Shown one piece after another: positions 6,874-41,161 of a stretch of DNA of 64,000 nt; positions within the stretch are counted from its first letter, which is position 1; every line of letters begins with the position of its first letter. A model generated the notes under the pieces. It did not search any database. It worked only from the letters and a program-made list of their open reading frames with translations, and was not told the DNA's origin. Source of the stretch: Agrococcus sp. ARC_14 (lineage in GTDB: Bacteria > Actinomycetota > Actinomycetes > Actinomycetales > Microbacteriaceae). The translations under genes were made by a program, and so were the position numbers. Location: positions 1,984,001 through 2,048,000 of the forward strand of contig NZ_JAKUDO010000001.1 in the NCBI RefSeq assembly GCF_022436485.1, given 5' to 3'.

Positions 6874-6912
6874 AGCTCACGACCTATGTTGATATCCCCG
6901 ATATCCAGTCGA
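6874..6912 (+). repeat. island repeat A (GATATC-core element end)
   Basis: First of five same-orientation copies. It reads AGCTCACGACCTATG then TTGATATCCCCGATATCCAG then TC, an imperfect dyad of two GATATC arms three bases apart. Resemblance to the other copies continues 50 or more bases to the right (GATACCGAAGCTC...) but not to the left; a GCTGACCGGGCGTTTTCC motif follows about 70 bases on, as after copies C and D. The rest of the roughly 310 bases between the IS5 fragment and merA holds no gene that I can see. Confidence 0.75.
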
Positions 6913-7098
6913 GTTGATACCGAAGCTCCGGCCCCGCTCTCCCTGAGGCCCAAGTCAGCAAACAAATCCCACCAAAACCTGCTGACCGGGCGTTTTCCGT
7001 GCGTGGTGGACTCTTAACGAGCGCCCACCGCTCATAGGTGATGCAGACAATGCACCAACCCGGCGTCCTGCGGCCCGGCCGGTGCGGCCCGGGTCGGG

Positions 7099-8490
7099 TC
7101 AGGCACAGCAGGAGGTGGGTAGTTCGTTGCGGAACAGCCCGGCGGCGATCCGCAGGCTCTCGGCCATGGTCAAGTAGGGAGCCCAGGTGTCGGCGAGGTC
7201 GTCGACGGTCATCTCGGCCTTGATCGCGTAAGTGGCGGCGAGCATGATCTCGCCCGCTCCGTCGGCGACCGCGTGGACGCCTAGGACCTTGCCGGTGCTG
7301 GCGTCGGCGACCAGTTTCAGCGCGCCGCGAGTGTCGCGGTTCACCAGTGCTCTCGGCACGTCCTCCAAAGCCAAAGTTCGGCAGGCACACGGGTGGCCTT
7401 GCTCAAGCGCTTCTTTCTCAGTGAGCCCTGCCGAGGCCAACTGTGGGCGGGTGAACATCACCGCCGGCAGGCCGGTGTAGTCCACCGTCTCACGCTTTGT
7501 CCCACCGTCGGCGAGTGCGTTGACGGCGGCGACCCGTCCAGAGGCGGCGGCGACGTACACGTACTGCGGAGTGCCCGCAACGTCGCCCGCTGCATACACC
7601 CGCGGGTTGGACGTGGCCTGGTGTTCGTCGATCACGACGAAGCCCCGGGCGTCGGTGTCGACGCCAGCTGCCGCGAGATTCAACGTGATGGTGTCGGAGT
7701 GCCTGCCGGTCGCCACCAACAGTCGCTCCGCAGTCACCTGGTTCCCAGACGCGGTGATCACTCTGACGCCGCCTTCCTCGGCGGTCTCGACGCCGGTCGC
7801 GTGTTCGGCGATCACGGCGATACCGTCATCGGCGAACACACCGGCCATGACCTCGCGCAACTCCGGCTCTGCGCGCGGCGCCAGGCGCCCGATCACAGTC
7901 ACGCGAGCGCCGAGGTGCGCGAACAGCTGGGCCTGCTCCATCCCGACATAGCCGCCACCGATGATCACCAGCGACTCGGGCACCTCGGTCAGTTCCATCG
8001 CAGTCGTCGACGTCAAGTACTCCACGTCCTCGATCCCGTCGATGCCGCGCACCGTGGGCTGCGAACCGGTCGCGATCACGTAGGACCGTGCCCGCAGCGG
8101 CTTCCCGTCGACCTCCACCGTGTCCTTGTCGGCGAATCGAGCCTCACCTGAGATCAGCGGGAACCCCCACGCTTCAGCGACCTCGGTGTACTTGTGCTGC
8201 TTGAGTCGGTCGATCAACTCAGCTTTCTGCGCCACCAGGGCGTCCAGGTCCACGCCGTCCGCGGAGGTGGGAACGCCGTCGAACGGGTTGGTTAGCGCAC
8301 TGTGCCGGGTCCCGGCAGCGGCCAGCAGGGTCTTGGACGGAATACAGCCGACGTTGACACAGGTCCCGCCCAGAGCGCCGCGCTCGATCAGTACGACCTC
8401 GGCGCCCGCCTTGCGGGCCGCGATACCTGCTGCCATCGCGGCCCCTCCCGACCCGATGACGGCCAGGTCAACGTCGTACTCCGCGCTCAT
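7099..8490 (-). CDS. merA: mercuric reductase
   Basis: A 463-residue FAD-dependent disulfide oxidoreductase that reduces Hg(II) to volatile Hg(0) with NADPH in the cytoplasm. The FAD-binding glycine motif (VIGSGGAAMAAG) is at the N-terminus, the redox-active CVNVGC at residues 44-49, and the C-terminal metal-handing Cys pair (CC, residues 461-462) separates MerA from lipoamide dehydrogenase. There is no N-terminal heavy-metal-associated domain, as in many short actinobacterial MerA. A strong GGAGGAGAT site precedes the ATG. It is divergent from merR across a dyad operator. Confidence 0.95.
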   Translation of the reverse strand: MSAEYDVDLAVIGSGGAAMAAGIAARKAGAEVVLIERGALGGTCVNVGCIPSKTLLAAAGTRHSALTNPFDGVPTSADGVDLDALVAQKAELIDRLKQHKYTEVAEAWGFPLISGEARFADKDTVEVDGKPLRARSYVIATGSQPTVRGIDGIEDVEYLTSTTAMELTEVPESLVIIGGGYVGMEQAQLFAHLGARVTVIGRLAPRAEPELREVMAGVFADDGIAVIAEHATGVETAEEGGVRVITASGNQVTAERLLVATGRHSDTITLNLAAAGVDTDARGFVVIDEHQATSNPRVYAAGDVAGTPQYVYVAAASGRVAAVNALADGGTKRETVDYTGLPAVMFTRPQLASAGLTEKEALEQGHPCACRTLALEDVPRALVNRDTRGALKLVADASTGKVLGVHAVADGAGEIMLAATYAIKAEMTVDDLADTWAPYLTMAESLRIAAGLFRNELPTSCCA

Positions 8491-8536
8491 CTCGATCTCC
8501 TCCGGTTTGGTATTCGCCCATCCATCACCCACCATG

Positions 8537-8560
8537 GACCTTCCAGTGCAGTAGAAGGTC
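8537..8560. promoter_or_regulatory. MerR-type operator between merA and merR
   Basis: A perfect 7-base dyad, GACCTTC and GAAGGTC, is separated by ten bases in the merA-merR intergenic space. MerR-family regulators bind such dyads placed between overlong-spaced promoter elements. The position allows control of both divergent genes. Confidence 0.7.
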
Positions 8561-8583
8561 AAGTACCGAGAGCGGAGACCGCC

Positions 8584-8973
8584 ATGCGAATCGGTGAACT
8601 CGCCGAGGCCACTGGCACGACCACCAAGACCCTGCGGTTCTACGAGGACAGCGGACTGCTGCCGCCCCCCGAACGGACCGTCAACGGATACCGCGACTAC
8701 GACCAAGAGGCCATCGCCAGGCTGGATTTCATCCGGCGAGGGCGCGCCGCCGGACTCACACTCGCTCAGATCCGCGAGGTACTCGATATTCGAGATACCG
8801 GGACCGCCCCGTGCCACCACGTCAAGGAGCTCCTCGACATCCGCCTCACTGCCCTCGACCAGCAGATCACCGACCTACAAGCGCTCCGCACCAACGTCGC
8901 CCACCTCCGAGACGGCGCCGCACAAGCCAACCCCTCCGAATGCCAGTCCAAGGACGTATGCCGCTACCTGTGA
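8584..8973 (+). CDS. merR: MerR-family mercury-responsive regulator
   Basis: A 129-residue regulator with the N-terminal winged helix (MRIGELAEATGTTTKTLRFY, GLLPPPERTVNGYRDY) and a long dimerisation helix. Cys77, Cys120 and Cys126 resemble the three metal-binding cysteines of Tn501 MerR in number and order. It is divergent from merA and separated from it by a matching operator. A GGAGA ribosome site precedes the ATG. Confidence 0.9.
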   Translation: MRIGELAEATGTTTKTLRFYEDSGLLPPPERTVNGYRDYDQEAIARLDFIRRGRAAGLTLAQIREVLDIRDTGTAPCHHVKELLDIRLTALDQQITDLQALRTNVAHLRDGAAQANPSECQSKDVCRYL

Positions 8974-9049
8974 GCCCTTCGTGGCCATAAGCCCGCGGCG
9001 GTAGCGCATGACGACCGGTGCGGGCTGCTCGAGGCGACTCTGTGCTCAG

Positions 9050-9085
9050 GTTCACGACCTGGGTTGATATCTCCGATATCCAGTC
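9050..9085 (+). repeat. island repeat B
   Basis: Second same-orientation copy: TTCACGACCTGGG, then TTGATATCTCCGATATCCAG, then TC. The sequence to its right (GATACCGAACTAGTTCGGC, then CTCTCCTG) resembles that after copy A, so A and B belong to one subfamily and bracket the merA/merR module. Confidence 0.75.
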
Positions 9086-9138
9086 GAACACGTGATACCG
9101 AACTAGTTCGGCTCCCCGACCCTCTCCTGTGTGCCGGC

Positions 9139-9399
9139 ATGCAAGGCCGGGTGGATCGCTGGCGCTCGCTGCTCGAGGGCGCCGAGCCCGAAGTGGTCGA
9201 CGGCGGCCTGCAGTAGCTGCTCCCGATCGCGGTCGTCGCGTCGGCGGCACGTGTCGCCGCCGATGAGCAAGCGTGCTGTCCGTTCTTCGCGTTCGATCTC
9301 GCGCTGCGCGGCGAGATGTTTGTGCTCGCGATGCGCACGCCTCCAGAAGGTGCGTCGATGCTCGCGGAGATCACCGGACAGCTCCCCCACACCGGATGA
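9139..9399 (+). pseudogene. small cysteine-pair metal-binding domain gene with an in-frame stop
   Basis: From ATG the frame reads MQGRVDRWRSLLEGAEPEVV, DGGLQ, then a TAG, and continues in frame LLPIAVVASAARVAADEQAC, CPFFAFDLALRGEMF to a TGA. The AADEQACCPFF segment is a domain often seen in actinobacterial metal operons or at the C-terminus of MerR-like regulators. Apart from the single nonsense codon the frame is intact, and its stop overlaps (ATGA) the start of the ACR3 remnant, so it was once the first gene of that pair. Confidence 0.55.
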
Positions 9400-9530
9400 C
9401 GCCGCGTCTGGTGCAGGCCTGGGACCAACACCAGGTTCCGATCTACCTCGCCGCGATCGCCGTCGGCGCAGCGGTCGGACTCATCTCCCGCTCCGTGTCG
9501 TACGAGATCCCCATGATTCCGGGCAAGTCG
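9396..9530 (+). pseudogene. ACR3-type arsenite permease, N-terminal stub
   Basis: MTPRLVQAWDQHQVPIYLAA followed by IAVGAAVGLISRSV matches the first transmembrane segment of ACR3/bile-acid:Na+ symporter-type arsenite exporters (HQVPIYLAA is characteristic). After about 45 residues the sequence leaves the family and no further helices follow. A fragment matching the last 80 residues of the same family lies at 22062-22313 in the same orientation. Confidence 0.65.
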
Positions 9531-9646
9531 CGAGGTCGTTGGGTGCCCGCGATTCTCACGTTAGTGTCGCAATCTTCAATGCACGGCTGGTCGGGCCTCC
9601 CCGCTTGAACTGCCACCCAGGAGATCATCGATCTCCTGGAGGTAGG

Positions 9647-10597
9647 TCAACTCATGACGCTGACCGAGGTAAGTTTCCGGGCAGTGAGGTAGTGCTCCGC
9701 GTCGAGTGCGGCGGCGCAGCCAGTGCCTGCTGCGGTGATGGCCTGCCGGTATCGCTTGTCGACGAGGTCCCCGCAAGCGAAAACCCCGGACAGGTTCGTG
9801 TGCGTGGTGGGGTGGTCGACGAGCACATAGCCGGCGGCATCCAATGCGACCTGATCGGCGACGAGAGCGCTGCGAGGGTCGTGCCCGATCGCGATGAACA
9901 AGCCCTCTGTGCCGAAGTCGCTCTCCGCACCAGTGACCGTGTCACGCAGCGCTAGCCGCTCGACACCGTTGTCGCCTTCAATACAGACGACCTCGCTGTT
10001 CCAGCGGGGCGAGATTTTCGGGTCGGAGAGGGCTCGGTCCTGCATGATCTTTGAGGCGCGGAGCGAGTCGCGGCGGTGGATGAGGGTGACGCTCCGCGCG
10101 AATCGCGTGAGGAAGGTCGCCTCCTCGACCGCGGAGTCGCCGCCGCCGACGACGGCGATGTCCTTGTCGCGGAAGAAGAAGCCGTCGCACGTGGCGCACC
10201 ACGAGACGCCGTGGCCCGTGAGCCGCTGCTCGCCCGGCACGTCGAGCTTGCGGTAGGCGGAGCCCATCGCAAGCACTACTGAGTGTGCCCGGAACTCCTC
10301 GGTCGCAGTCGACACCGTCTTCACCTCGCCGGCGAGCGAGAGTGCGGTCGCGTCGTCGTACAGGATGCGGGCGCCGAAGCGCTCGGCCTGCATGCGCATC
10401 TGCTCCATGAGGTCGGGGCCCATGATGCCGTGCTCGAAGCCGGGGAAGTTCTCGACCTCGGTCGTGTTGACGAGCGCGCCGCCCGGTTCGACGGAGCTGG
10501 CGAGCACGATGGGGTCGAGGCCTGCGCGTGCGAGGTAGACGGCGGCGGTGTAGCCGGCCGGGCCTGAGCCGACGACGATGACGTTCTCGATGCTCAT
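9647..10597 (-). CDS. trxB: thioredoxin reductase
   Basis: A 316-residue FAD/NADPH enzyme with the N-terminal FAD motif [17 protein letters not shown], the redox pair CATC (Cys134, Cys137) and NADPH-binding [15 protein letters not shown]. It ends with the FAD-binding block [10 protein letters not shown] and [13 protein letters not shown]. It overlaps the upstream arsC by four bases, so it is the last gene of the arsC-arsC-trxB operon. It probably supplies reducing power for arsenate reduction; no thioredoxin gene is adjacent. The MSIENVI start is chosen for this overlap. Confidence 0.95.
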
Positions 10598-11244
10598 GCG
10601 GTCGCCACTTCCAACTGCTCGAGCAGCGTGTCGACGTGCTGCGTGATCTCGTCGCGGATGCGACGGATCTGCTCGAGGTTGGCGCGCTCGGGGTCGTCGA
10701 GCTGCCAGTCCTCGTAGCGCTTGCCGGGGTAGATCGGGCATGCATCGCCGCAGCCCATCGTGACGACAACGTCGGCTGCGCGGACGACGTCGTCGGTGAG
10801 CGGCTTCGGGAAGGCAGCGTCGAGGTCGAGCCCGATCTCCCGCATCGCGGTGGCCACGTCCGGGTTGAGTTCATCTGCTGGCATCGACCCCGCGGAGCGG
10901 ACCGTCAGTCGTCCACCCGAGCGCGCGCCGGCGATGGCTGCCGCCATCTGCGAGCGGCCAGCGTTCTGCACGCAGACGAACAGCACGCTGGGTTGGTCGC
11001 GGCCGACTGCGCCCTTCGCTTCTGCGAGCGCTCGGAGGCGGTCCTTCGAGAACCGGCCGACGCGCGTTGCGAGGTGCGCCTTCACCGTGGAGGTGCGAAG
11101 CAGCGCCGTGTAGGACTCGAGCACATATCGCTCGATCGTCTCGGCGGCGAAGATGCCCACGTACAGCTCGCTGAGCTCATCAGTGAGTCTGTGCAGGAAG
11201 CGCTCCGGGTACTGGATGCCTGGCAGCGGCGCTCCAGCACTCAT
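10594..11244 (-). CDS. arsC: arsenate reductase with N-terminal helical extension
   Basis: 216 residues in two parts. Residues 1-80 form a helical extension ([34 protein letters not shown]) found ahead of many actinobacterial ArsC domains. Residues 86-216 are a low-molecular-weight phosphatase-type ArsC with the P-loop CVQNAGRS (Cys91), TMGCGDACP and YEDWQLDDP. It would reduce arsenate to arsenite using thioredoxin or mycothiol chemistry. It overlaps its neighbours by four bases on both sides. Confidence 0.92.
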
Positions 11245-11657
11245 GCCGGATCCTTCTCGGGGACCAGCTCGCCCAGCAGCTGCTCGATGCGCCCGCGGAT
11301 GTCGTCGCGGACGCGCCGGACCGTCTCGATGTCCTTGCCCGCCGGGTCCTCGAGCTCCCAGTCCTCGTAGCGCTTACCCGGGAAGATCGGGCATACGTCA
11401 CCGCAACCCATCGTGATGACCGCGTCGGACTCCCGCACAGCATCGGTCGTCAGCACCTTTGGCGTGTTGCCTGCGATGTCGATTCCGAGCTCTGCCATCG
11501 CCTCGATCGCGATGGGATTGATCTGGTCCTTGGGGGCGCTGCCGGCGGAGAGCACTTCGACGGCCCCGCCGGACAGCGCGGACATGAACCCCGCTGCCAT
11601 CTGCGAGCGGCCAGCGTTGTGGACGCAGACGAACAGGACGGTGGGCTTCTCGGTCAT
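11241..11657 (-). CDS. arsC: arsenate reductase, single-domain
   Basis: A 138-residue LMW-PTPase-fold arsenate reductase: P-loop CVHNAGRS with Cys11, then [20 protein letters not shown]. It has the length of single-domain ArsC enzymes such as the mycothiol-dependent ones of Corynebacterium. It is read just before the 216-residue arsC with a four-base overlap and about 100 bases after a small 52-codon gene. The GAAGGAACGAGAAGCGAG stretch upstream of the ATG supplies a ribosome site. Confidence 0.93.
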   Translation of the reverse strand: MTEKPTVLFVCVHNAGRSQMAAGFMSALSGGAVEVLSAGSAPKDQINPIAIEAMAELGIDIAGNTPKVLTTDAVRESDAVITMGCGDVCPIFPGKRYEDWELEDPAGKDIETVRRVRDDIRGRIEQLLGELVPEKDPA

Positions 11658-11756
11658 CTCGCTTCTCGTTCCTTCTCAGTGGCGCGCGGCACGCGCCTGC
11701 CGTTCGTTCGACGGCGATCTATAGATACCGCAGTTCGGTGAACGGCAGGTAGCAGA

Positions 11757-11915
11757 TCAAGCGACCCAACCCCGCGGGTTACCGAGCGAGACGGGTCGCG
11801 CTTCGCACGAGCAGTCGTCCGGAAGGGAGACCTCTAGTTGCAGCTTCACAGTGATGGGCTCGGTCGCGCTCTCCGTGGGGAGCGTGACCTCGTGCTCGAT
11901 GATCTGGATTGTCAT
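11757..11915 (-). CDS. small 52-residue protein heading the arsC operon
   Basis: ATG with a GAGAGGTAGCC ribosome site opens MTIQIIEHEVTLPTESATEP, then ITVKLQLEVSLPDDCSCEAR, then PVSLGNPRGWVA and a stop. It is the first frame after a promoter with TTGACA/TGTACT boxes and lies ahead of two arsC genes in the same direction. A CSC motif could bind a thiophilic metal. No family is recognised; alternating polar and hydrophobic residues suggest a small beta-rich protein. Confidence 0.6.
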   Translation of the reverse strand: MTIQIIEHEVTLPTESATEPITVKLQLEVSLPDDCSCEARPVSLGNPRGWVA

Positions 11916-11956
11916 TGGCTACCTCTCGTGCATCATCGATGGAGTTCGATGCAGTC

Positions 11957-11985
11957 AGTACATCGCATACATCGATGCTTGTCAA
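11957..11985 (-). promoter_or_regulatory. predicted ars promoter with ArsR-like operator
   Basis: On the minus strand TTGACA and TGTACT are separated by exactly 17 bases, ahead of the small gene and arsC-arsC-trxB. The spacer contains GCATCGATGTATGCGATG. The CATCGAT motif recurs in the two other ars promoters of the island, and TTGACA-17-xxxACT is repeated at 19122-19150, so a shared ArsR is a sensible repressor. Confidence 0.65.
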
Positions 11986-12027
11986 TGAACGGGGATAAGT
12001 AGACGCGTTGATCTATGGATGGCTTGC

Positions 12028-12045
12028 GTTCACCGGCCGTTCACA
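12028..12045 (+). promoter_or_regulatory. Pho box upstream of pstS
   Basis: GTTCACCGGCCGTTCACA is a direct repeat of GTTCACN units spaced 11 bases apart, the arrangement of PhoP-binding PHO boxes known from Streptomyces. It lies about 80 bases before the pstS start and predicts induction on phosphate starvation. Confidence 0.7.
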
Positions 12046-12122
12046 TAGATCATCTTCTATGGGTTTGTCGCTGTCCGGCGGCATCGTTACGCGCGGAGCC
12101 CCCGCCTACGAGAGGACAATCA

Positions 12123-13085
12123 GTGCCCAAGCCCTTCACCAAGCCCGCAGTGGCCGCCGCGGCGCTCGCAACCATGCTGCTGCTCTCCGCTTGCGGTGGA
12201 CAGCAGGACACCGCAGCGCCGGATGGTGGCGACGCGAGCTCGTCCGGCCTCTCCGGCGCCGTCGTCGCCGACGGCTCATCGACCGTCGCGCCGCTCAGCG
12301 AGGCAGCCGCCGACCTCTTCCGCGACGCCGAACCGGAGATCAACGTCACCGTCGCGACGAGCGGCACCGGCGGTGGCTTCCAAGCGTTCTGCGCTGGAGA
12401 GACCGACATCTCCAACGCCTCGCGCGAGATCAAGGACGAGGAGGCCGAGGCCTGCGCCGCCGCCGGCATCGAGTTCACCGAGCTCGTGGTCGCGAACGAC
12501 GGTCTCTCGGTCGTCGTGAACCCGGAGAACGACTGGGCCGACGATCTCACGCTCGAGCAGCTGCAGACGATCTGGGCCCCGGAGTCGGAGGGTGTGGTGA
12601 TGAACTGGAACCAGGTCGACCCGTCGTTCCCCGATCAGCCGCTGACGCTCTTCGGCGCGGGCACCGACTCGGGCACGTTCGACTACTTCACCGAGGCCGT
12701 GAACGGCGAGGAAGGCGCGATTCGCGCGGACTACAGCCCATCGGAGGACGACAACATCACGGTGCAGGGCGTCTCCGGCGATGTCGGCGCGCTCGGCTTC
12801 TTCGGGCTGAGCTACGTCGAGGAGAATGCCGACGCCATCCGCGCGGTCTCCGTCGACGGCGTCATGCCGAGCACCGAGACGGTGCAGGACGGCTCGTACA
12901 CGCCGCTCGGCCGTGAGCTGTTCATCTACGTCAATAACGCTTCCTACACGGACGAGGCGCAGGTCGCCGCGTTCGTCGATTTCTCGATCGAGAACCACGC
13001 GGAGATCGCCGAAGCAGCACTCTTCGTGCCGCTGACCGAGGAGCAGGTGCAGGTCGCGCAAGACGAGCTGGCATCGCTCGGCTGA
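12123..13085 (+). CDS. pstS: phosphate ABC transporter binding lipoprotein PstS
   Basis: 320 residues from a GTG preceded by GAGAGGA. The signal peptide ends in LLLSACGG (lipobox). The mature protein has the PstS ligand loops DGSSTVAPLSEAAADLF, TSGTGGGFQAFCAGETDISN and GAGTDSGTFDYFTEA. It captures phosphate outside the membrane for PstCAB. A Pho box lies upstream. Its location inside an arsenic island invites the idea of a phosphate-selective binding protein that excludes arsenate, which sequence alone cannot prove. Confidence 0.94.
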   Translation: MPKPFTKPAVAAAALATMLLLSACGGQQDTAAPDGGDASSSGLSGAVVADGSSTVAPLSEAAADLFRDAEPEINVTVATSGTGGGFQAFCAGETDISNASREIKDEEAEACAAAGIEFTELVVANDGLSVVVNPENDWADDLTLEQLQTIWAPESEGVVMNWNQVDPSFPDQPLTLFGAGTDSGTFDYFTEAVNGEEGAIRADYSPSEDDNITVQGVSGDVGALGFFGLSYVEENADAIRAVSVDGVMPSTETVQDGSYTPLGRELFIYVNNASYTDEAQVAAFVDFSIENHAEIAEAALFVPLTEEQVQVAQDELASLG

Positions 13086-13099
13086 GGACGCGTTCATCC

Positions 13100-14056
13100 A
13101 TGACGAGCACCATCGCACGGAAGGGTGGCCCGGGTCTGGACCCGGGCCACCCGCCCGCGCCGTCGCTCCGCGGCCGCCGCCGTCCCGGCGAGGCGCTCGC
13201 CAAGCTCGCACTGCGCATCGCAGCCGCCGTCACCGTCGTCACGACGCTCGGCATCGTGGTGGCGCTGCTCGTGCCCTCGCTTGGCTTCTTCGCAGAGGTT
13301 CCGCTGGGCGACTTCCTGTTCGGCGATCGCTGGGCACCCCGATTCGCCGACGCATCCTTCGGCGTACTGCCGCTCGTGACGGCGACACTCTGGACCACGG
13401 TCATCGCACTCGCTGTCGCGGTGCCGCTGGGGCTCGGCGCTGCGATCCTGCTCTCCGAGTACGCGGGCCCGAGGCTGCGCAAAGTGCTGAAGCCGCTGCT
13501 CGAGATTCTCGCAGGCGTGCCCACCGTCGTCTACGGCTTCTTTGCCCTGCAATTCGTGCAGTCGACCGTCCTGCGGGAGTGGCTGCAGCTGCCGACCGGA
13601 GCATTCAGCGTGCTTGCCGCGGGCCTCGTGATGGGCGTCATGATCATCCCCACGATCGCCTCGATCTCGGAGGACGCAATGTCGGCTGTTCCGCAGGCGC
13701 TGCGCCAGGGCTCCGCGGCGCTCGGAGCGAACCGCATGCAGACGACGCTCCGCGTGGTGTTTCCCGCGGCGTTCTCGGGCATCGTTGCTGCAGTCGTCCT
13801 CGGCATCTCTCGCGCTGTGGGCGAGACGATGATCGTTGCCATCGCCGCGGGCAATCAGGCGGTCATCGTGACCGACCCGCTGCAGCAGGGGCAGACGATG
13901 ACCGGCTTCATCGCGAACGCGGCGCTGGGCGATTCGCGCGTCGGCTCGCTTGAGTACGACACCCTCTTCGCGGTCGGCCTGCTGCTGTTCTGCATCACGC
14001 TGGCGATCAACGCGATCAGCATCGCGCTCGTCCGACGATTCCGAGAGGCGTACTGA
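13100..14056 (+). CDS. pstC: phosphate ABC transporter permease PstC
   Basis: A 318-residue permease. After a basic N-terminus come six helices, the periplasmic loop [26 protein letters not shown] (family motif for PstC) and the coupling loop [21 protein letters not shown]. It follows pstS by 14 bases and overlaps pstA by one base. Codons about 8-18 encode the stretch [14 protein letters not shown] from a perfect DNA palindrome not expected in the family, which suggests a short palindromic insertion in the flexible N-terminus. Confidence 0.92.
13123..13152. repeat. perfect 14-bp inverted repeat inside the start of pstC
   Basis: GGGTGGCCCGGGTC, two bases, then GACCCGGGCCACCC: 30 bases of perfect palindrome, all G/C apart from two bases per arm and the loop. 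In the mRNA it would make a very stable hairpin about eight codons into pstC. It could act as an attenuator that sets the PstS:PstC ratio, or be a REP/RPE-like insertion. Confidence 0.8.
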
Positions 14057-14955: not shown

Positions 14956-14960
14956 TTCCC

Positions 14961-32814: not shown

Positions 32815-32840
32815 GTTGCCCTGTGTCAACCCCTGTAGCG

Positions 32841-32932
32841 TCAGGCGGCCTTGGGGGTGTGTTCGTTGAGGATGCGTTGGAGGGCGTTGTGGCGGTCGGG
32901 GTCGTAGGCGAGGTGGTCTTGCCAGCAGCGCC
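32841..32932 (-). pseudogene. DDE transposase, C-terminal piece displaced by an IS3 insertion
   Basis: Minus-strand frame RCWQDHLAYDPDRHNALQRI LNEHTPKAA and a stop. It ends exactly at the IS3 left end; the preceding part of the same protein (... LTRRIVDIQTRLIHLAAAKTG) is found on the other side of that IS at 34265-34632, so the two are halves of one interrupted gene. Confidence 0.65.
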
Positions 32933-32975
32933 TGAATCGCCCCGGTTCTGGTGGAGGGTCTGATTCCCCGAGAGG

Positions 32976-33311: not shown

Positions 33312-33319
33312 TCGCGTTC

Positions 33320-34249: not shown

Positions 34250-34264
34250 ACCCGGGGCGATTCA

Positions 34265-34632
34265 CCGGTCTTGGCTGCGGCGAGGTGGATGAGGCGGGTC
34301 TGGATGTCGACGATCCGGCGGGTCAACTCGGCCGGGTTGGTGGCTTCGAAGATCGCCTCGAGCTCGGCCCGCTTCTGGTCGCTGAGGATGCCGCTTTCGA
34401 TCACGCGCTGGAACGGGGTGCGGGGCGCGTCGTAGACGCGGGTGGCCTTGCCGTTGCGGTTGACGCGCCAGCCGATCGCCTTGGTGGTGGCGGTGAACAT
34501 GTTGAAGCGGATCCGCACCAGGTCGTAGAGCTCGTTCAGCAGCCGCAGCTCCATCGCGGTGTCGTAGCGGTAGTGGAACGCGAATCGGCGCACGATGTCG
34601 GCGTTCTTCTGCTCCACGTGCGCGTTTCCCAG
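34265..34632 (-). pseudogene. DDE transposase, middle/C-terminal piece
   Basis: Minus strand: GNAHVEQKNADIVRRFAFHY RYDTAMELRLLNELYDLVRI RFNMFTATTKAIGWRVNRNG KATRVYDAPRTPFQRVIESG resembles the region after the catalytic core of IS481/integrase-type transposases in actinobacteria. It is cut by the IS3 insertion on its C-terminal side and by an ISL3 end on the other. The catalytic domain itself is missing. Confidence 0.65.
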
Positions 34633-34790
34633 ATGAGGGTGTAGGTCGGCCGGGCGCGTCGGTCCGCAGATAGACGTCGAGGTCTCCCGACGATGGAGGT
34701 TCCTACGCCATCCATCCGAAAGACCTCGACGTGCCCGTCGCTACCCCGCCGGCCGGCTTCGGCCGCCCTGACCTAACCGCCTTCGCGGCT
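34633..34790 (+). mobile_element. ISL3-type left end with first codons of the transposase
   Basis: The sequence GGTGTAGGTCGGCCGGGCGC to TTCCTACGCCATCCAT and the coding start VATPPAGFGRPDLTAF are nearly identical to 38093-38260. After TAFA the similarity stops. This is a truncated second copy of the ISL3 left end, in the same orientation as the other, with the GlxA-HbpS region between them. Confidence 0.75.
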
Positions 34791-35013
34791 CATCCCAATC
34801 GGCTCTGATCGGGTCTGCTGACCCTCTCGACGAGAACGCAGCGACATCACAGCCACCCAACCCCGACCGTCCGGGAAGCCGGGGCACGTCACATGGGCTG
34901 TGCTGCGGGCGTGTCGAGTGGGTAGTCCAGGGGCGACGCAGGAGCGTCGACGCGACGTGCTGAGAGGTGGTTCCAACCGAGCGCTAGGACACAAGCTACA
35001 GGCATGCGATAGG

Positions 35014-35955
35014 TCAGGAACGGCGTCGCTCCCTGCGCAGGAGGGAGCGCAGAGTCTCGGCGTTTGCGTAGCCGACCCGTAGCGCGATCTCGGCGGAGGT
35101 GAGGTCCGTGGTTGCTGAGAGGTGTCGAGCTCGTTCGGTGCGAAGCCGTTGGACGAAGCCGAGCGGAGTGAGGTTGAGCGCCGCACGGACTCGTCGTTCG
35201 AGGGTGCGCCGGCTGGTGCCGAGCGACTGCGCGACGAAGGCGACGTTGAACGGTTCGTCCAGGCGGGCGCGCACGAAGCGTTCGAACTCGACGACGATCG
35301 GGTCCTCGTGCCGGAGATGTTCGTAGGCGACGAAAGCCGCCTGCGACGGGCGCTCGTCGATGATGAGGAGCTTGGCGACATGTTGGGCCAGGTCGGGGCT
35401 GATCGATCGCACGAGTGAGAGCGCGAGGTCGATGTGGGCGAAGGCGGCGCCGGCGGTGACGAGGTTCCCGTCGACCACGACCATGGTGTCGAGATCGAGG
35501 GCGACGGTCGGATAGCGCTTCCGGAACTCCGGCCCCAGGAACCAGCTGGTCGTCGCCCGCCGATGATGCATCCGTCCGGTCTCGGCGACGGCGAACACGC
35601 CGGTGCACGCCGCGGCGATCCGGGTGGTCGCGTCGTCGAGGCGCCCGAGTGAGGCGATGACCGAACGAGCATCTCGACTCTGGAGGGCGTCGTGGGTCGC
35701 GGCGGCCGTGAGGGTTCCAAGCGCAGGGACGACGACCACGTCGAACTCTCCGGACTCCGGCAGCGGGTGGTCCACCGACAGGGTCATCGATGCCGTCGTG
35801 GTCACTCGCCGTTTCGGTCCGAGGATGGCGAGTTCGATCGGGTCGATCCGCGGGTCGACATCGCCGCGGGCTCCGTCGGCCACCCGCACGATGTCGATGA
35901 TCGACGCGATAGCCGAACCGAAGCAGCCGTCGATCGCGATCAGTCCGATACGCAT
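35014..35955 (-). CDS. GlxA-type AraC-family regulator (DJ-1/PfpI domain + AraC HTH)
   Basis: 313 residues. The N-terminal GATase1/DJ-1-like domain has RIGLIAIDGCFGSAIASIID, DVVVVPALGTL and the nucleophile-elbow-like IAAACTGVFAVAETG; the C-terminal AraC HTH has LDEPFNVAFVAQSLGTSRRT, LERRVRAALNLTPLGFVQRL and EIALRVGYANAETLRSLLRR. It is divergent from an ABM monooxygenase gene, a common pairing for regulators of reactive-carbonyl or antibiotic responses. Confidence 0.88.
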   Translation of the reverse strand: MRIGLIAIDGCFGSAIASIIDIVRVADGARGDVDPRIDPIELAILGPKRRVTTTASMTLSVDHPLPESGEFDVVVVPALGTLTAAATHDALQSRDARSVIASLGRLDDATTRIAAACTGVFAVAETGRMHHRRATTSWFLGPEFRKRYPTVALDLDTMVVVDGNLVTAGAAFAHIDLALSLVRSISPDLAQHVAKLLIIDERPSQAAFVAYEHLRHEDPIVVEFERFVRARLDEPFNVAFVAQSLGTSRRTLERRVRAALNLTPLGFVQRLRTERARHLSATTDLTSAEIALRVGYANAETLRSLLRRERRRS

Positions 35956-36062
35956 GACGTAAACAATAGCAATACTGCCGTATACGCCACTCCCCATCGG
36001 CCCTCGCTCGTCATACGCTGAACTCGCCCCACGAAGAACCCCGACACCTAGGAGAACCCCTC

Positions 36063-36374
36063 ATGTCCACACCCGCATCACTTCCGTATGCCTTCGTCGC
36101 CAAGATCGTCGCGGCCGATGGACAGCACGCCGCGGTCGCCGATCTGCTCGCCGGCGCTGTCGCACTCGCCAACGAAGAAGTAGGAACGATTGTCTGGTTC
36201 GCGGTCAGGACCCACGCCGACACCTTCTGGATCTTCGATGCATTCCCCGACGAGGCCGCTCGCGACGCCCACGCCAACGGCGCCATCGTCGCAGCCCTGA
36301 TGGCCAACCAGCACCTCCTCGGCGCAGCACCCGAGATCCTGGCGGCCGACGTCCTCGCGTCCAAGCTCCCGTAG
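36063..36374 (+). CDS. antibiotic-biosynthesis-monooxygenase (ABM) domain protein
   Basis: 103 residues, start ATG with TAGGAG upstream. LPYAFVAKIVAADGQHAAVA DLLAGAVALANEEVGTIVWF, then TFWIFDAFPDEAARDAHANG AIVAAL is the ferredoxin-like ABM fold with the usual W/F-x-x-D-x-F-P/D-D-E-A pattern. The function is probably a small-molecule monooxygenase or quinone-stress protein. It is divergent from the GlxA-type regulator. Confidence 0.88.
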   Translation: MSTPASLPYAFVAKIVAADGQHAAVADLLAGAVALANEEVGTIVWFAVRTHADTFWIFDAFPDEAARDAHANGAIVAALMANQHLLGAAPEILAADVLASKLP

Positions 36375-36529
36375 TCCGCCAACGCACGAGACGATCGCGC
36401 CCCGCCGAGCCGTCGGACCCGACCGCCTCGACGCCCGCACCACGTTGACGATCCCCGACGGGCCGATCACGAGGGGGGGCCAGGCAACACCAGGCGCAAG
36501 CCTGGAGCGGCACTGGTTCACCGGTGGTC

Positions 36530-36699
36530 ATCGAGAGAGCCAGCGCATGATGGCGATCTTGCACGACAAGGTAAATATTGCCGACGCCGTCGACGCCACC
36601 CCCATCACCTTGGAGGACGCCCCCCTTGGGTATGCGGAGTTCGACGCTGGAGCAGCGACCAAGTACGTCCTTAATCCTCACGGCTACGTCTCGGCATGA
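36530..36699 (+). pseudogene. glutathione-independent formaldehyde dehydrogenase, C-terminal fragment
   Basis: MMAILHDKVNIADAVDATPI TLEDAPLGYAEFDAGAATKY VLNPHG matches the last 50 residues of FdhA-type zinc dehydrogenases. The preceding ~150 bases after the ABM gene are non-coding in character. It is the second broken formaldehyde/alcohol dehydrogenase end in the island, different in sequence from the one at 28861-29127. Confidence 0.75.
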
Positions 36700-36741
36700 G
36701 ACGCCTGCCTACTCAACAGCAACCAACTAGGAGCCATCAAC

Positions 36742-37143
36742 ATGTCAGCACTCACCCTCGCCGATGCGCGCACGATCATCACCGCAGCCGAGAAAAAGGC
36801 GGATGAACTCGGTCAGCCGATGAACATCGCCGTTGTCGACGCCGGCGGGAACCTAATCGCCCACGTACGTCAGGACGGTGCCTGGATCGGGAGCATTGAC
36901 ATCTCGATCAACAAGGCGTGGACCTCCAAGGCTTTTGACATCCAGACCAAGGACCTGGGCGACAACTCGCAGCCCACCCAGCAGTTCTTCCGGATTCACG
37001 CCACCAACGAAGGACGCGTTGCGATCTTCGCTGGCGGTGTCCCACTGTCGCGCGATGGCGTTGTCGTAGGCGGCGTGGGAGTCAGCGGTGGCTCCGGTGA
37101 ACAAGACCAGAGCGTCGCCCTTGCGGCCCAGGCCGCTCTGTAG
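36742..37143 (+). CDS. HbpS/GlcG-family (DUF336) protein
   Basis: 133 residues, ATG with AGGAG upstream. LADARTIITAAEKKADELGQ PMNIAVVDAGGNLIAHVRQD GAWIGSIDISINKAWTSKAF, then GGVPLSRDGVVVGGVGVSGG SGEQD is the classic HbpS/GlcG pattern. Family members bind haem or act in oxidative-stress sensing or glycolate use. No secretion signal is seen, so it is probably cytosolic. Confidence 0.92.
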   Translation: MSALTLADARTIITAAEKKADELGQPMNIAVVDAGGNLIAHVRQDGAWIGSIDISINKAWTSKAFDIQTKDLGDNSQPTQQFFRIHATNEGRVAIFAGGVPLSRDGVVVGGVGVSGGSGEQDQSVALAAQAAL

Positions 37144-37185
37144 TCCAGCGCGCACAACACGTCACCGGGCGCGACCCTCTGGAGA

Positions 37186-37533
37186 GTGGTCGCGCCCGGT
37201 CACTACTTCGCCGATGGCACCGCCAAGGTCCTCACCACCGACGGCCACGAGGGCAAGGTCTACGAGTTCACCGGCGACACGGCGTTGTCCTACGCCGACA
37301 TCGCCGACGCGTTCGGGCAGGTCACTGGCAGCGAGGTCGTCTACCAGCCGGTTGCGGCGGCCGACGTGGTTGCCGCGATGGTGCAAGCCGGCCTCGACGA
37401 GGAGACCGCGGGCTTCGTCGCGGCGATCGACACCAGTATCGCCGAAGGCCCGCTCGACCTGGTCGACCCGATTCTGGGCCAGCTCATCGGCCGGCCCACC
37501 ACAACGCTGGTCGACGTCCTCAGGGCGGCCTGA
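37186..37533 (+). pseudogene. NmrA/QOR2-like NAD(P)-binding reductase, C-terminal half
   Basis: APGHYFADGTAKVLTTDGHE GKVYEFTGDTALSYADIADA, then AADVVAAMVQAGLDEETAGF VAAIDTSIAEGPLDL and LIGRPTTTLVDVLRAA match the second half of YtfG-like quinone reductases. The Rossmann half with GxxGxxG is absent; sequence before the GTG looks unrelated. It is probably a 5'-truncated gene, although translation of the remainder from GTG is possible. Confidence 0.7.
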
Positions 37534-37597
37534 GGCGCGACCCTGGCGAGTTCTGGGTCACGTCGCCACGCCATGGAGCGACAGCGCAAGGGGCCCG

Positions 37598-37685
37598 TCA
37601 GGCCCAGATGTACTCCTCGGCGATCGCGCCGTCGCGCCACTTGGCCACAGTGACCATGCGGTCACCGTTCTCGAACTCGCCAATG
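37598..37685 (-). pseudogene. SnoaL-like protein, C-terminal stub
   Basis: Minus strand: VIGEFENGDRMVTVAKWRDG AIAEEYIWA and a stop, the usual ending of SnoaL/NTF2-like small proteins. Upstream coding is absent. Confidence 0.45.
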
Positions 37686-37831
37686 ACACTTCGGGCTTAA
37701 GGAGCGACAGGGTCAAGGTATCGGCCAGAGCGCCCCGGATAGGGATCGGCAAGTGGGGACGTCCGGACATAGCCGATGAGCGGACGCCCCTCGGTCCGCA
37801 ACCTGTCCAGATCACTGCGTAGGGTTCCGGC

Positions 37832-38083
37832 GTGCGTTGCCTGCTTGTGTCCCTCGTGGTCGTCTCCCTCCTGTGCTCTTGCTCCCCGGAGAAGGGGTTC
37901 GGAGAGTCGAAGGAAGTCAGCGCCGGTGACTACGGGTCTACGTGGCCGCTGACCGTGGACTCGGTCCTGCTGAACTGCAACGAGGACTTCGTCCTAGTGC
38001 AGGTAGTGGGCCATGCGTTCCGCATCGACGGCCTCACCGACCCGCAACACGCACACCGCAAGTTCCTGCGCCTTTGGGGGGTC
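37832..38083 (+). pseudogene. DUF2511-like lipoprotein cut by an ISL3 end
   Basis: GTG start; VSLVVVSLLCSCS is a lipoprotein signal with lipobox. The mature part KEVSAGDYGSTWPLTVDSVL LNCNEDFVLVQVVGHAFRID GLTD resembles YebY/DUF2511 proteins. The expected ending (DIDPIWKDD..., second Cys) is missing because the ISL3-type end begins near 38084. The protein made would have a foreign tail. Confidence 0.6.
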
Positions 38084-38360
38084 TTCCCAGATGACGGTGT
38101 AGGTCGGCCGGGCGCGTCGGTCCGCAGATAGACGTCGAGGTCTCCCGACGACGGAGGTTCCTACGCCATCCATCGGAAAGACCTCGACGTGTCCGACGCT
38201 ACCCCGCCGGCCGGCTTCGGCCGCCCTGACCTGACCGCCTTCGCTCGACTCGACGGCCTCGGTCTGAGCGTGACCGGGCAACGACTTGAACCGGATCGTG
38301 CGGTCCTCGCGTGCCGCGTGGTGGAACCAGATCAGTGGTGCCGACGGTGCGGCAGCGAAG
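38084..38360 (+). mobile_element. ISL3-family left end and transposase N-terminus, interrupted by IS256
   Basis: After the end GGGTCTTCCCAGATGACGGT the transposase starts at 38189: SDATPPAGFGRPDLTAFARL DGLGLSVTGQRLEPDRAVLA CRVVEPDQWCRRCGSEVK, including the N-terminal zinc-binding CRRCG of ISL3 transposases. It is broken at codon ~58 by the IS256 element; the rest is not found on the other side. Confidence 0.8.
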
Positions 38361-39770
38361 TTAAGTCCCGCATAGTGGTGTAACGCTCGGTGACCGGGCT
38401 CGTCGCTACCGACGTGAGCGCGGTCACCGTGTGATCCTTCGAGGAATCTCCTACAACCCACTCGAAAGGCATCAACACGATGACCGCTCCTCATATTGTC
38501 GACCCTGCCGGCGTGCTGGCAGAAGCCCTAACCGACGCGTCGCCGGATCTGATGCGCTCGCTGCTGCAGACGATGATCAACGCGCTGCTGTCCGCCGACG
38601 CCGACGCGGTCGTCGGCGCCGAATGGGGCCAGCCCAGCCCCGACCGCGCGACGCATGGCAACGGCTACCGGCACCGCCCGCTCGACACGCGCGTCGGCAC
38701 CGTCGATGTCGCGATCCCGAAGCTGCGGCAGGGCACCTACTTCCCTGACTGGCTGCTCGAGCGGCGCAAGCGTGCCGAGACCGCGCTGATCACCGTCGTC
38801 GCCGACTGCTACCTCGCCGGCGTCTCCACCCGGCGGATGGACAAGCTGGTGAAGACGCTCGGCATCCACTCGCTGTCGAAGTCGCAGGTCTCGCGCATGG
38901 CGGCCGATCTCGACGAGCACGTCGAGCAGTTCCGGCACCGGCCGCTGGATGAGGCGGGACCATTCACGTTCGTCGCCGCCGACGCGCTCACGATGAAGGT
39001 CCGCGAAGGCGGGCGCGTGATCAATGCCGTCGTGCTGGTCACTACCGGCGTCAACGCCGACGGGCGCCGCGATGTGCTCGGCATGCGCGTGGCCACCAGC
39101 GAGACCGGGCCGGCCTGGAACAGCTTCTTCGCCGACCTTGTCGCCCGCGGGCTGACCGGCGTGCGACTGGTCACCTCCGACGCCCACCAGGGCCTGGTGG
39201 AGGCGATCGCCGCGAACCTCCCAGGGGCCAGCTGGCGGCGCTGCAGAACGCACTACGCGGTGAACCTCATGTCCGTCACGCCCAAGAACCTCTGGCCAGC
39301 CGTGAAGGCGATGCTGCACTCCGTCTACGATCAGCCAGACCGAGACGCCGTCCACGCTCAGTTCGATCGACTGCTCGACTACCTCGACGGGAAGCTGCCC
39401 GACGCGTTCGAGCACCTCGACGCGGCGCGCGCCGACATCCTCGCCTTCGCGCAGTTCCCCGAAGGCCTCTGGCAGCAGATCTGGTCGAACAACCCGAACG
39501 AGCGCCTGAACCGCGAGATCCGTCGCCGCACCGACTCCGTCGGCATCTTCCCAAACCGCGACGCCATCACCCGCCTGGTCGGCGCGGTCCTGGCGGAGCA
39601 GACCGACGAATGGGCCGAAGGGCGCCGCTACCTCGGCCTCGAGATGCTCGCCAAGAGCCGCCTCACACTCGTGGCCGACACCGGTAGCGAGGTGACTACC
39701 GAACCCGCCCTCCAGCTCTCCGCCTAACCAGCCAGAACGAAGGACACCGCTACACCACTACCGGGGACTT
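38360..39770 (+). mobile_element. complete IS256-family insertion sequence
   Basis: Ends are inverted repeats: GTTAAGTCCCGCATAGTGGT GTA at left and TACACCACTACCGGGGACTTGAC at right. It contains one intact transposase. It landed inside an ISL3 transposase on its left, and its right end abuts a kinase-like gene that lacks its N-terminus, so flanking DNA was deleted. A partial copy in inverse orientation is at 25536-25900. Confidence 0.9.
38480..39727 (+). CDS. IS256-family transposase
   Basis: 415 residues, intact. Features include NGYRHRPLDTRVGTVDVAIP KLRQGTYFP, STRRMDKLVKTLGIHSLSKS QVSRMAADLDEHV, catalytic Asp in FVAADALTMKVREGG, VTSDAHQGLVEAI, WRRCRTHYAVNLM and the Glu in WSNNPNERLNREIRRRTDSVG IFPN. 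The ATG follows a GAAAGG ribosome site. Confidence 0.96.
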   Translation: MTAPHIVDPAGVLAEALTDASPDLMRSLLQTMINALLSADADAVVGAEWGQPSPDRATHGNGYRHRPLDTRVGTVDVAIPKLRQGTYFPDWLLERRKRAETALITVVADCYLAGVSTRRMDKLVKTLGIHSLSKSQVSRMAADLDEHVEQFRHRPLDEAGPFTFVAADALTMKVREGGRVINAVVLVTTGVNADGRRDVLGMRVATSETGPAWNSFFADLVARGLTGVRLVTSDAHQGLVEAIAANLPGASWRRCRTHYAVNLMSVTPKNLWPAVKAMLHSVYDQPDRDAVHAQFDRLLDYLDGKLPDAFEHLDAARADILAFAQFPEGLWQQIWSNNPNERLNREIRRRTDSVGIFPNRDAITRLVGAVLAEQTDEWAEGRRYLGLEMLAKSRLTLVADTGSEVTTEPALQLSA

Positions 39771-40452
39771 GACCCTCGCGGGAGACCTCGTGCTGAAGCC
39801 TCACCGCTCTGCCGTCGAGTTGGAATGGCTGGAGTCGCTACCGGTTACGACGTCCGTGCGCACCGCTCGCCCTATCCGAGCAGCAGACGGTCGCATCCTC
39901 GTTGACGGGTGGTCGGCGATGCCGTTTCTGGCCGGAACCCACCGCCACGGACGATGGGCCGACATCGCGGCGGCCGGACGGTCCCTCCGCCATGAACTCG
40001 AACGGGTCACTGAGCCCGCGTGGGTGCAGGCGAGAGTCGATCCCTGGGCGGCGGCGGATCGGATCGCATGGGAGGAAGACGGGTTGCCGAGGGGCGCGCC
40101 CCGCTGGTTGCAGGCGTTAGCCGGGCGGCGCGCGCGACCGGACGGGACAAGAACGCTGATACATGGCGACCTCACCGGAAACGTCCTTCTTGAACCATGC
40201 CAGCCGCCAGCGATCATCGACCTGAGTCCCTATTTCCGACCCGTCGAGTACGCCACCGCGATCTTGGTCGTGGACGCGGTGTGCTTCGAAAAGGCGTCAC
40301 CGCATACGGCAAGGCTGGTCACCGACGAAGACGCGCACCAGCTGCTGCTTCGCGCGATCCTCTTTCGAGCTGCCACCGACCTCCTGCGCGACCACACTGT
40401 CGCCCAAGCGCGCTACGGGCCCGCGATTGCCCTCCTCGATGTGGCACGCTGA
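39769..40452 (+). pseudogene. aminoglycoside-phosphotransferase-like kinase, N-terminally truncated
   Basis: The frame carries GDLVLKPHRSAVELEWLESL, then the catalytic loop TLIHGDLTGNVLLEP and the metal site AIIDLSPYFRPVEYATAILV VDAV. This is the TIGR02569-like actinobacterial APH-fold family. The N-terminal nucleotide-binding lobe (about 30-40 residues) is missing because the IS256 right end stands immediately before it. An ATG within the junction could still allow translation, but activity is doubtful. Confidence 0.75.
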
Positions 40453-40519
40453 CGGATCCCCTCACGAGACGCCGCCCGCCGCCTCCGCCGGCACGCCGAG
40501 CCGGGCATAGCGTGGAGTC

Positions 40520-41011
40520 ATGCTGCGCATTTCTCCTTTCTCATCGGACGACCGAGAGGATCTGCTCGCTCTGGCGCTGCGGGCGTGGGAGCCGGTCCTC
40601 CCACTGACCGAGGAAGCGGTGTCGCCGTTCGTCTATCGGGCTTTCTACCCGAATGGCTGGCGCGTGCGGCAGTACGCCGACCTTGCAGCGGTCCTCGATG
40701 AGGAGCCGGGGAACGTCGACGTCGGCTTCCTCAACTCCCGAGTGGCGGGTTGGGTGTGTACGCGGACGCATCCGGAGGACAGCATGGGCGAGGTCTACGT
40801 GCTCGCCGTCGAACCGGACCTGCAACGGCGCGGCGTCGGCCGGGCTCTCCTCGATCACTCGATCGAGCGGTCGAGGGCCGCGGGGATGAGCATGGTGATG
40901 GTCGAGACCGGTGACGATCCCGGTCACGAACCGGCGCGCCGGGCGTACGAAGCGGACGGCTTCGAGCGGTGGCCGGTCGCCCGCTACTTCAAGGACCTGT
41001 CGAACGAGTAG
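40520..41011 (+). CDS. GNAT-family N-acetyltransferase
   Basis: 163 residues. Acetyl-CoA-binding motif A is seen as VYVLAVEPDLQRRGVGRALL DHSIERSRAAG, then MVMVETGDDPGHEPARRAYE ADGFERWPVARYFK. The substrate is not predictable. It is followed by the last island repeat and may be the end of the mobile region. Confidence 0.9.
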   Translation: MLRISPFSSDDREDLLALALRAWEPVLPLTEEAVSPFVYRAFYPNGWRVRQYADLAAVLDEEPGNVDVGFLNSRVAGWVCTRTHPEDSMGEVYVLAVEPDLQRRGVGRALLDHSIERSRAAGMSMVMVETGDDPGHEPARRAYEADGFERWPVARYFKDLSNE

Positions 41012-41126
41012 AGCGATCGCGCAGTTGGGACCGCCCCGAATCCGCGACCGAGAGCCGTACCGTCAGCCTGTTGGCGCGCCATCAAGCCGACCGACAATCC
41101 GACCACCGTTCCCCCAGCGGCGCCAG

Positions 41127-41161
41127 CACACGACGCGAGTTGGTATCCCCGATATCCAGTC
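41127..41161 (+). repeat. island repeat E
   Basis: Fifth and last same-orientation copy: ACACGACGCGAG, then TTGGTATCCCCGATATCCAG, then TC. The next 45 bases (AGGTGAGTAGTACCCCCAGT, then a segment ending TTTCACTCCC) match those after copy C closely, whereas the sequence to the left does not. To its right the gene content becomes chromosome-like. Apart from it, the 255 bases between the GNAT and hydrolase genes hold nothing evident. Confidence 0.75.

Follow-up and report, generated by a model that had tools for sequence, protein, structure and literature searches.

Repeats and modules at the locus

We analysed a 64-kb stretch of DNA from Agrococcus sp. ARC_14 (hereafter the window; C1:1984001-2048000 of the source genome G000, 3.27 Mb), in which five copies of a short repeat, here called sites A to E, stand between groups of metal-resistance and other genes. 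With up to three mismatches allowed, the pattern GTTGATATCCCCGRTATCCA matched the window five times, always on the plus strand (at 6888, 9063, 22348, 24761 and 41139), and these copies are the entire set of the genome; the opposite strand of G000 held none, the reversed pattern used as a control gave none, and 100 dinucleotide shuffles of the window gave no match, the chance expectation being nil. The five copies and their single orientation had been claimed in an earlier note on this DNA and are borne out. The conserved unit is 33 nucleotides (nt) long, with the consensus CACGACcTanGTTGATATCCCCGaTATCCAGTC, and its core GATATC-CCC-GATATC is an imperfect palindrome. Ten single-strand folds (five sites, two strands), computed for 74-nt stretches only, had z-scores from -1.37 to +1.23, none of them exceptional. 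The sites and modules are the following:

6878-6910, plus strand: site A, 33-nt putative module-terminal recombination site, from the pattern search
6911-~7003: mer-type 5' arm after site A
6911-9085: module A-B, with MerA (7099-8490, minus strand) and a MerR-family regulator (8584-8973, plus strand), terminating in site B
9053-9085, plus strand: site B, 3' end of the mer module
9086-22370: module or modules B-C, terminating in site C and including ArsR regulators and a flavoprotein
9647-11657, minus strand: thioredoxin-reductase-like and arsenate-reductase-like genes (B-C)
12123-15812: phosphate-type ABC transporter (B-C)
20621-22060, plus strand: ArsB (B-C)
22338-22370, plus strand: site C, from the pattern search
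22371-24783, plus strand: module C-D (cad), terminating in site D
22558-22881, plus strand: CmtR-type regulator (C-D)
22929-23531, plus strand: cation efflux protein (C-D)
23532-24140, plus strand: CadD family protein (C-D)
24239-24700, plus strand: LspA (C-D)
24751-24783, plus strand: site D, from the pattern search
24784-41161: module or modules D-E, terminating in site E and including a LuxR-type regulator, LtrA and an AraC-type gene
25019-25540, plus strand: truncated dif-linked tyrosine recombinase, directly right of site D and its arm
27230-28442: SIS-domain protein and 3-hexulose-6-phosphate synthase (D-E)
30364-32814: UvrA-like gene (D-E)
32976-34249: IS3-type element (D-E)
38552-39727: Mutator-family transposase (D-E)
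40520-41011: GNAT (D-E)
41129-41161, plus strand: site E, with a cad-type 5' arm to its right

The family matches agree with the earlier division of the locus into mercury, arsenic/phosphate, cadmium, and formaldehyde and other modules bracketed by the repeats. MerA, ArsB, CmtR and the 3-hexulose-6-phosphate synthase score above curated cut-offs, and CadD lies above the Pfam cut-off and below that of NCBIfam. The family match of ArsB is split into two stretches and the protein is about 50 amino acids (aa) longer than the models, which suggests an internal insertion. An apical loop-internal loop (ALIL) pseudoknot was seen at 33270-33397 (plus strand), at the frameshift region of the IS3-type element.

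We searched 149 genomes for the repeat, 24 of the genus Agrococcus (G000 included) and 125 of other genera. Copies were found in 9 of the 24 and in none of the 125, with 25 matches in all, and within a genome the copies on any one contig share one strand.

Breakpoints at the sites

The flanks of 25 sites from nine genomes were compared in all 300 pairs, a flank being counted as shared when at least 70% of 40 nt were identical. The set excludes a 3-mismatch match in G002 (1441306) that did not look like a site, as well as a second weak G008 match (22912); it takes in a degenerate G008 site as an addition and also the degenerate G018 site. The left flank alone was shared in 10 pairs and the right flank alone in 18, while no pair shared both; when shifts of up to 3 nt were allowed, the counts were 10, 24 and 0. 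The same contrast is seen at single sites, for which identities come from 24 sites, without the degenerate G018 one. The left flank of site B is 95-97% identical to those of sites in G002, G010 and G019, whose right flanks are at 30-40%, and that of site C is 100% identical to G018_27585, with a right flank at 28%. The right flank of site A is common to sites in G018, G019 and G002 and to the right flanks of dif in G010 and G019, and that of site E is similar to the sequence right of dif in G018 (0.87) and G002 (0.82).

Among the five window sites the left flanks are unrelated, as had been noted before. The subfamilies proposed for the right flanks hold for C with E after a one-base gap, whereas the resemblance of A with B is weak (by eye). 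Similarity was said to extend 45-60 bases to the right; it does lie there, but a motif TGACCGG-N-TTT recurs beyond it, 72-77 nt right of 9 of the 25 sites (A, C and D among them) and also right of six of nine dif copies, and may be a candidate accessory binding site.

Module A-B is found at 97-98% nucleotide identity in G002 and G010, where the alignments stop at 9086 and 9085; with G019 included, the mer alignments end on the last base of site B or one base further. Stretches 91-94% identical to the cad module occur in G010, G014, G019 and G023, with alignment ends at 24783 (the last base of site D) in G010 and G014, 24728 in G019 and 24806 in G023. The end of module B-C (22077-22376) is 98% identical at a G018 site. 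Core segments of at least about 600 nt have 70-86% identity across the compared genomes, and at sequence level the mer and cad modules are thus more alike between species than the neighbouring core DNA. The modules also recur in differing order and with differing neighbours in other Agrococcus genomes. Since the shared modules mostly end at the repeat or a few bases from it and no pair of sites shares both flanks, the comparisons show that the unit consists of a 5' arm, genes and the 33-nt site, at whose 3' end the crossover takes place. This agrees with the earlier proposal that the repeats are termini of modules stacked one way by recombination. In the arrays of G010 and G019 (L035/L036 and L040) a mer-type 5' arm beside dif is followed by cad genes, with the switch between them close to the TGACCGG motif, some 75 nt away from the site.

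The chromosomal dif as left border

The array is not confined to the window: it starts at the chromosomal dif just outside it, where a recombinase operon is also found, which goes beyond the earlier note. The dif 20-mer CCGATAATGCACATTATGTC, which is contained in the dif suggested for Frankia alni in the accessible text of PMC3025954, was spotted upstream of a tyrosine recombinase that lies 3.4 kb left of the window, dif itself being 4.7 kb left of it. Within one mismatch dif is present in a single copy in each of the 24 Agrococcus genomes; G003 and G015 hold further 3-mismatch matches. Twenty-three of the 25 site matches share a contig with dif, and all 23 lie right of it and on its strand; the remaining two (G019 C12 and G014 C13) are on contigs separate from dif. 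The right flanks of dif match module 5' arms at 70% or more in G002, G010, G014, G018 and G019, and in G023 the dif right flank matches one of the genome's own sites.

An empty site, which the earlier note had proposed to look for, was found in the comparison of the array-free G022 with G014. Coming from the left, the two align across dif as far as base 1524 (dif plus GGAT), and the alignment resumes at base 1526, the first base after the last site of G014, with 91% identity over 1355 nt; one further difference, of 1.9 kb, lies left of dif. This maps the array insertion of G014 to within one base, between dif plus GGAT and the chromosomal flank. In the window the right chromosomal flank of the array locus is

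48155-50930: LysR regulator (48155-49111, minus strand) and FAD-binding protein (49182-50930, plus strand)

and homology between G009 and G000 sets in at the 3' end of the LysR gene (window 48155), a point that lies about 40 nt right of dif in G009 and 52.9 kb right of it in G000. The distance from dif to the next flank gene is 1.1 kb in G009, 1.6 kb in G004, 5 kb in G001, 11.6 kb in G010, 20.7 kb in G018 and 53.9 kb in G000. The 52.9 kb of G000 are not all array, given that genes at 45.99-47.34 kb of the window, between site E and LysR, are common to other genomes. Taken together, these alignments show dif as the chromosomal target, kept intact as the left border of the array, with the entry of modules between the last bases of its XerD arm (...TTATGTCGGAT) and the chromosomal right flank.

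Left of dif in G000 there is a Doc/Fic-like reading frame (L083:13889-14254, named by eye), whose TAA stop lies within dif, and the gene left of dif in G018 resembles a PIN-domain toxin (by eye).

The recombinase operon beside dif

About 240 bp right of dif in G000 and G018 stands an operon of three genes, a tyrosine recombinase, a Cro/C1-type regulator and a zinc-ribbon/degenerate recombinase-like protein, and through dif the repeats are thereby tied to a recombinase, a link whose absence would have spoken against the earlier interpretation. The recombinase starts 264 nt from the start of dif in G000 and 262 nt in G018, has 370 aa and is 82% identical between the two genomes; in G018 the operon sits behind a module-type 5' arm. 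Its residues R190, K223, H298, R301, H325 and Y334, to which we assign catalytic roles from family knowledge, are invariant in six homologues. The second gene encodes a 112-aa Cro/C1-type (XRE) protein with an HTH_26 match, and the third a protein of about 500 aa (493-516 aa) with repeated CxxC pairs. In the alignment of the third protein the expected HxxR, H and Tyr are replaced (motifs by eye). Its AlphaFold model is modest (pLDDT 68, pTM 0.39), but all 50 Foldseek matches listed for the C-terminal half are tyrosine recombinases (best E 9e-5), and the protein is apparently a catalytically dead recombinase-like partner. The window copy after site D retains the N-terminal 174 aa of the recombinase, at 76% identity, and lacks the catalytic domain; the sequence upstream of it resembles that upstream of the full-length genes (by eye). 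More distant recombinase copies were found in G015 and G003, at 43% and 39% identity.

The best models for the recombinase are XerD and XerC, with scores far below their cut-offs, and the nearest solved structure by sequence is XerD. An integron integrase was rejected as the agent, the recombinase scoring 35.8 bits against a cut-off of 265 with TIGR02249 and 21.5 against 435 with NF011946. Serine recombinases were likewise rejected: only in G000 and G018 are there resolvases near the array, and no serine recombinase match at all was found in the site-bearing G001, G008 and G014. Phage-type integrases found in G002, at 170 kb from dif, and in G019, on another contig, are unlike the dif-linked recombinase and were also discarded. 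A plasmid or phage origin of the array was set aside, as site A with its flanks gave three blastn matches in plasmids with E = 5 and the dif-linked recombinase no tblastn match in phages at E up to 1e-10.

Operons and arrays in other actinobacteria and plasmids

A scan of species genomes for the recombinase gave 14 loci, three of them with too little upstream sequence (<400 nt). In 9 of the 11 counted loci a dif site (up to two mismatches) lies 261-322 nt before the recombinase match; they belong to Agrococcus (G018 itself), Mycolicibacterium (three, two of them M. rhodesiae), Mycolicibacter, Rhodococcus, Skermania, Subtercola and Arthrobacter, and the loci of Rhodococcoides (L158) and Mycobacterium sp. 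AT1 (L163) have no such site upstream. Homologues at E up to 1e-60 were found in 37 of the 394 genomes of a class-wide sample. The six dif-linked loci of this sample, two of which are G000 and G018, are all among the nine best-ranked, and their dif matches, five perfect and one with one mismatch, all lie at 262-290 nt; the background of the loose dif pattern is 181 of 3000 random 700-nt windows (6%). Among plasmid records, 191 contain recombinase homologues at E up to 1e-20, and in the seven that were examined the three-gene order was present in all and a dif-like site 266-286 nt upstream, with varied centres, in six.

In the loci L150-L163 and in those on plasmids, TGCAG/ATGCA-rich palindromes precede the recombinase start codon and ATTCGC..GCGAATA palindromes lie right of dif. 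They resemble operators or accessory sites, perhaps for the XRE protein.

An array comparable to those of Agrococcus is seen in Mycolicibacterium sp. P1-18, where four sites AATACGACC..ATCGAATATGGCGGGTTACCAGTA lie 17-35 kb right of dif and the operon, all on the strand of dif and none on the opposite one. Forty first-order Markov sequences of 39 kb, searched on both strands, gave two matches and the mirrored sequence none. This array holds two operons in succession. A second P1-18 contig has two related sites right of another dif-like site, and on it (L182; G149 C1, ~131.2 kb) one related site is on the strand opposite to its two neighbours. In Skermania one such site lies 0.7 kb right of a dif-like site, and a search for direct repeats inside the relatives' loci did not reveal diverged sites. 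An ungapped alignment, made by eye, of a Rhodococcus site with dif has 12 identical bases in 24 nt. The junction is spanned in mycobacteria by GTAGTAAG, common to dif and some of the sites, and in Agrococcus by roughly RTYRAR in both, although the dif of G000 and that of G019, for instance, deviate; judged by eye, this shared sequence could be a candidate overlap region.

Outside these subjects, a thiamine pyrophosphate (TPP) riboswitch above the gathering score was found at window 4040-4150 (minus strand). It precedes genes at 1359-4008 (minus strand) for an NMT1/THI5-like binding protein, a permease and an ATPase (thiamine precursor uptake), and a Ykof-type protein is divergent.

Origin of the array

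We consider the repeats to be module-side attachment sites of a cassette array that is anchored at the chromosomal dif and was probably built by the dif-linked operon, with a probability of roughly 70%. The recombinase of the operon would join putative circular modules to 'dif|' or 'site|' junctions, and arrays would extend to the right of dif, always in one orientation, with possible architectural or regulatory roles for the degenerate partner and the XRE protein. As dif would keep its whole 28 bp, dimer resolution would not be lost, insertion could be repeated and growth would be one-way. Arrays persist in genomes that lack the operon; we nevertheless infer that the operon rather than XerCD moves the modules.

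Several observations weigh against this reading. Seven of the nine site-bearing genomes, including the single-contig G002 and G023, have no close copy of the recombinase, so that the role of the operon in module movement is one by association, and the arrays would have to outlive the recombinase or receive it in trans. At class level dif is linked to only 6 of the 27 loci with enough upstream sequence (30 loci taken), and hence the dif-linked members appear to be one part of a wider recombinase family with other habits. The exact empty site comes from one pair alone (G014 and G022; G016 agrees less fully), the two halves of the G014 comparison lie on separate contigs, and in six other arrays the sequence right of the last known site has no match among 15 array-free dif flanks, which divergence or the loss of sites might explain. 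Circular forms of the modules were not seen, and no search was aimed at them. The dif right flank of G000 matches no site arm at 70%. In G006, 14 kb separate dif from the flank gene (C2:333156-347172) with no site within three mismatches; a different kind of dif insertion and a decayed array are candidates. Not every module end is exact, as the cad alignment stops 55 nt short of the site edge in G019 and 23 nt beyond it in G023, and the match at the end of module B-C overshoots site C by 6 nt in G018. Finally, since a mer-type arm at dif precedes cad genes in G010 and G019, arm and genes must also be reshuffled by some other process, which the model leaves unexplained.

The alternative that survives best is an ordinary tandem accretion of dif-specific integrative elements that belong to one family, with the operon element as the parent and the modules as its decayed, passively mobilised relatives. 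The recombinase at dif behind a module-type arm in G018, the truncated copy behind site D, the two successive operons in Mycolicibacterium and the existence of degenerate sites would all fit such a history, but the mer and cad modules are compact, keep 91-98% identity from species to species and occur in operon-free genomes, namely G002 (mer), G010 (mer and cad) and G023 (cad). We hold it to be possible, with less than an even chance, and it differs from our preferred reading partly in wording, the mechanism being common to both.

It is rather unlikely that the host XerC and XerD move the modules in place of the dif-linked operon, as in integrative mobile elements exploiting Xer (IMEX) or a pdif-like system with strongly altered dif mimics. 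That dif anchors the array and that arrays are present without the operon would be expected from such a system, a Rhodococcus site can be aligned to dif (12 of 24 nt) with a YYGATA XerC-like arm (by eye), and known IMEX sites diverge in the XerD arm, according to the accessible text of PMC5357621. However, IMEX exchange takes place inside dif, while here dif and site each retain their right arm and the junction lies at the outer edge; moreover, the centres differ (TGCACA vs CCCCGA), the G018 operon itself sits behind a module 5' arm, and operons linked to dif-like sites are found again in other genera and on plasmids.

Homologous recombination between dispersed copies of a short repeat could have shuffled neighbouring genes, and the arm and gene reshuffling near the TGACCGG motif fits homologous exchange there, but it cannot account for a one-base-precise entry at dif, which has no repeat, nor for the single orientation, and we regard it as very improbable as a general explanation. 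That the repeat is a regulator's operator or an ordinary intergenic repeat, both of which the earlier note had named as ways to be wrong, can practically be dismissed in spite of the palindromic core, because such a binding site would not be a breakpoint and the genome has just five copies, at a single locus, in a single orientation and linked to module borders, no pair sharing both flanks and the next predicted genes right of A, B and E reading toward the site on the minus strand.

Comparison with known systems and significance

The dif-anchored array works like an integron, yet by its enzyme it is not one. As in integrons, modules in one orientation carry a 3'-terminal site and are stacked beside a primary site, which the recombinase gene adjoins. 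Integron cassette arrays without a recombinase exist (clusters of attC sites lacking integrases, CALINs), and the arrays described here also occur without one. Unlike in integrons, the primary site is dif, the recombinase is not of the IntI type and points away from dif and along the array, and the modules hold several genes on both strands. To our knowledge, integrons are rare in actinobacteria.

Insertion at dif is shared with IMEX such as the gonococcal genetic island (GGI), LME-1 and the CTX/VGJ/TLC phages. In the accessible parts of PMC9765430 and PMC5357621, IMEX carry a dif mimic and use host Xer, and insertion of GGI and LME-1 leaves one intact and one altered dif. In Agrococcus there is instead a dedicated dif-linked operon, many small modules are stacked, and the exchange is at the outer edge of dif, the junction lying outside both dif and site and not inside the 28-bp site. 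The pdif/dif islands of Acinetobacter are similar in that clustered resistance and toxin-antitoxin modules are bordered by Xer-type sites; as far as the available text of PMC12907356 goes, their flanking sites alternate between C/D and D/C and the chromosomal island does not lie at the main dif, whereas all 23 matches on the dif contig are in the orientation of dif and the array starts at the main dif. Tn554-like and recombinase-in-trio (RIT) elements also have operons with more than one tyrosine-recombinase-like protein. The portion of PMC3414803 available to us places Tn554-like elements in actinobacterial chromosomes and plasmids, pairs a recombinase of 611-828 aa with one of about 350 aa in them, and gives RIT elements three recombinases with possible catalytic motifs; no mention of a link to dif was found in that portion for either. 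The operon described here differs in having an active-type recombinase of 370 aa, an XRE protein of 112 aa and a zinc-ribbon/degenerate protein of about 500 aa. There is neither a second tyrosine recombinase of more than 600 aa with a TnpC, the third protein having 493-516 aa and the second gene being HTH_26, nor a row of three adjacent catalytic recombinases, the third protein being without HxxR, H and Y (by eye).

No description of a dif-anchored system of operon plus array was found among the papers listed in searches of an open-licence library, and the novelty is provisional because subscription papers were outside this search. On balance we think it probable that this is a further bacterial cassette-capture platform, distinct from integrons in enzyme and site, with dif as the primary insertion point, terminal sites of 33-36 nt and a three-gene operon that drives one-way stacking while dif is spared. 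It would be present in at least two actinobacterial orders, represented by the arrays of Agrococcus and Mycolicibacterium, and not only on chromosomes but also on plasmids, there in the form of operon plus dif-like site.

The system offers exact substrates for testing, namely the dif edge, the module site and the three proteins, and the pairing of an active with an apparently dead recombinase poses a question on asymmetric Xer-like reactions. If our reading is true, actinobacteria have a cassette platform of their own, which would explain the passage of metal-resistance modules between species and horizontally acquired genes would enter at a site kept by nearly all circular chromosomes and leave it unbroken.

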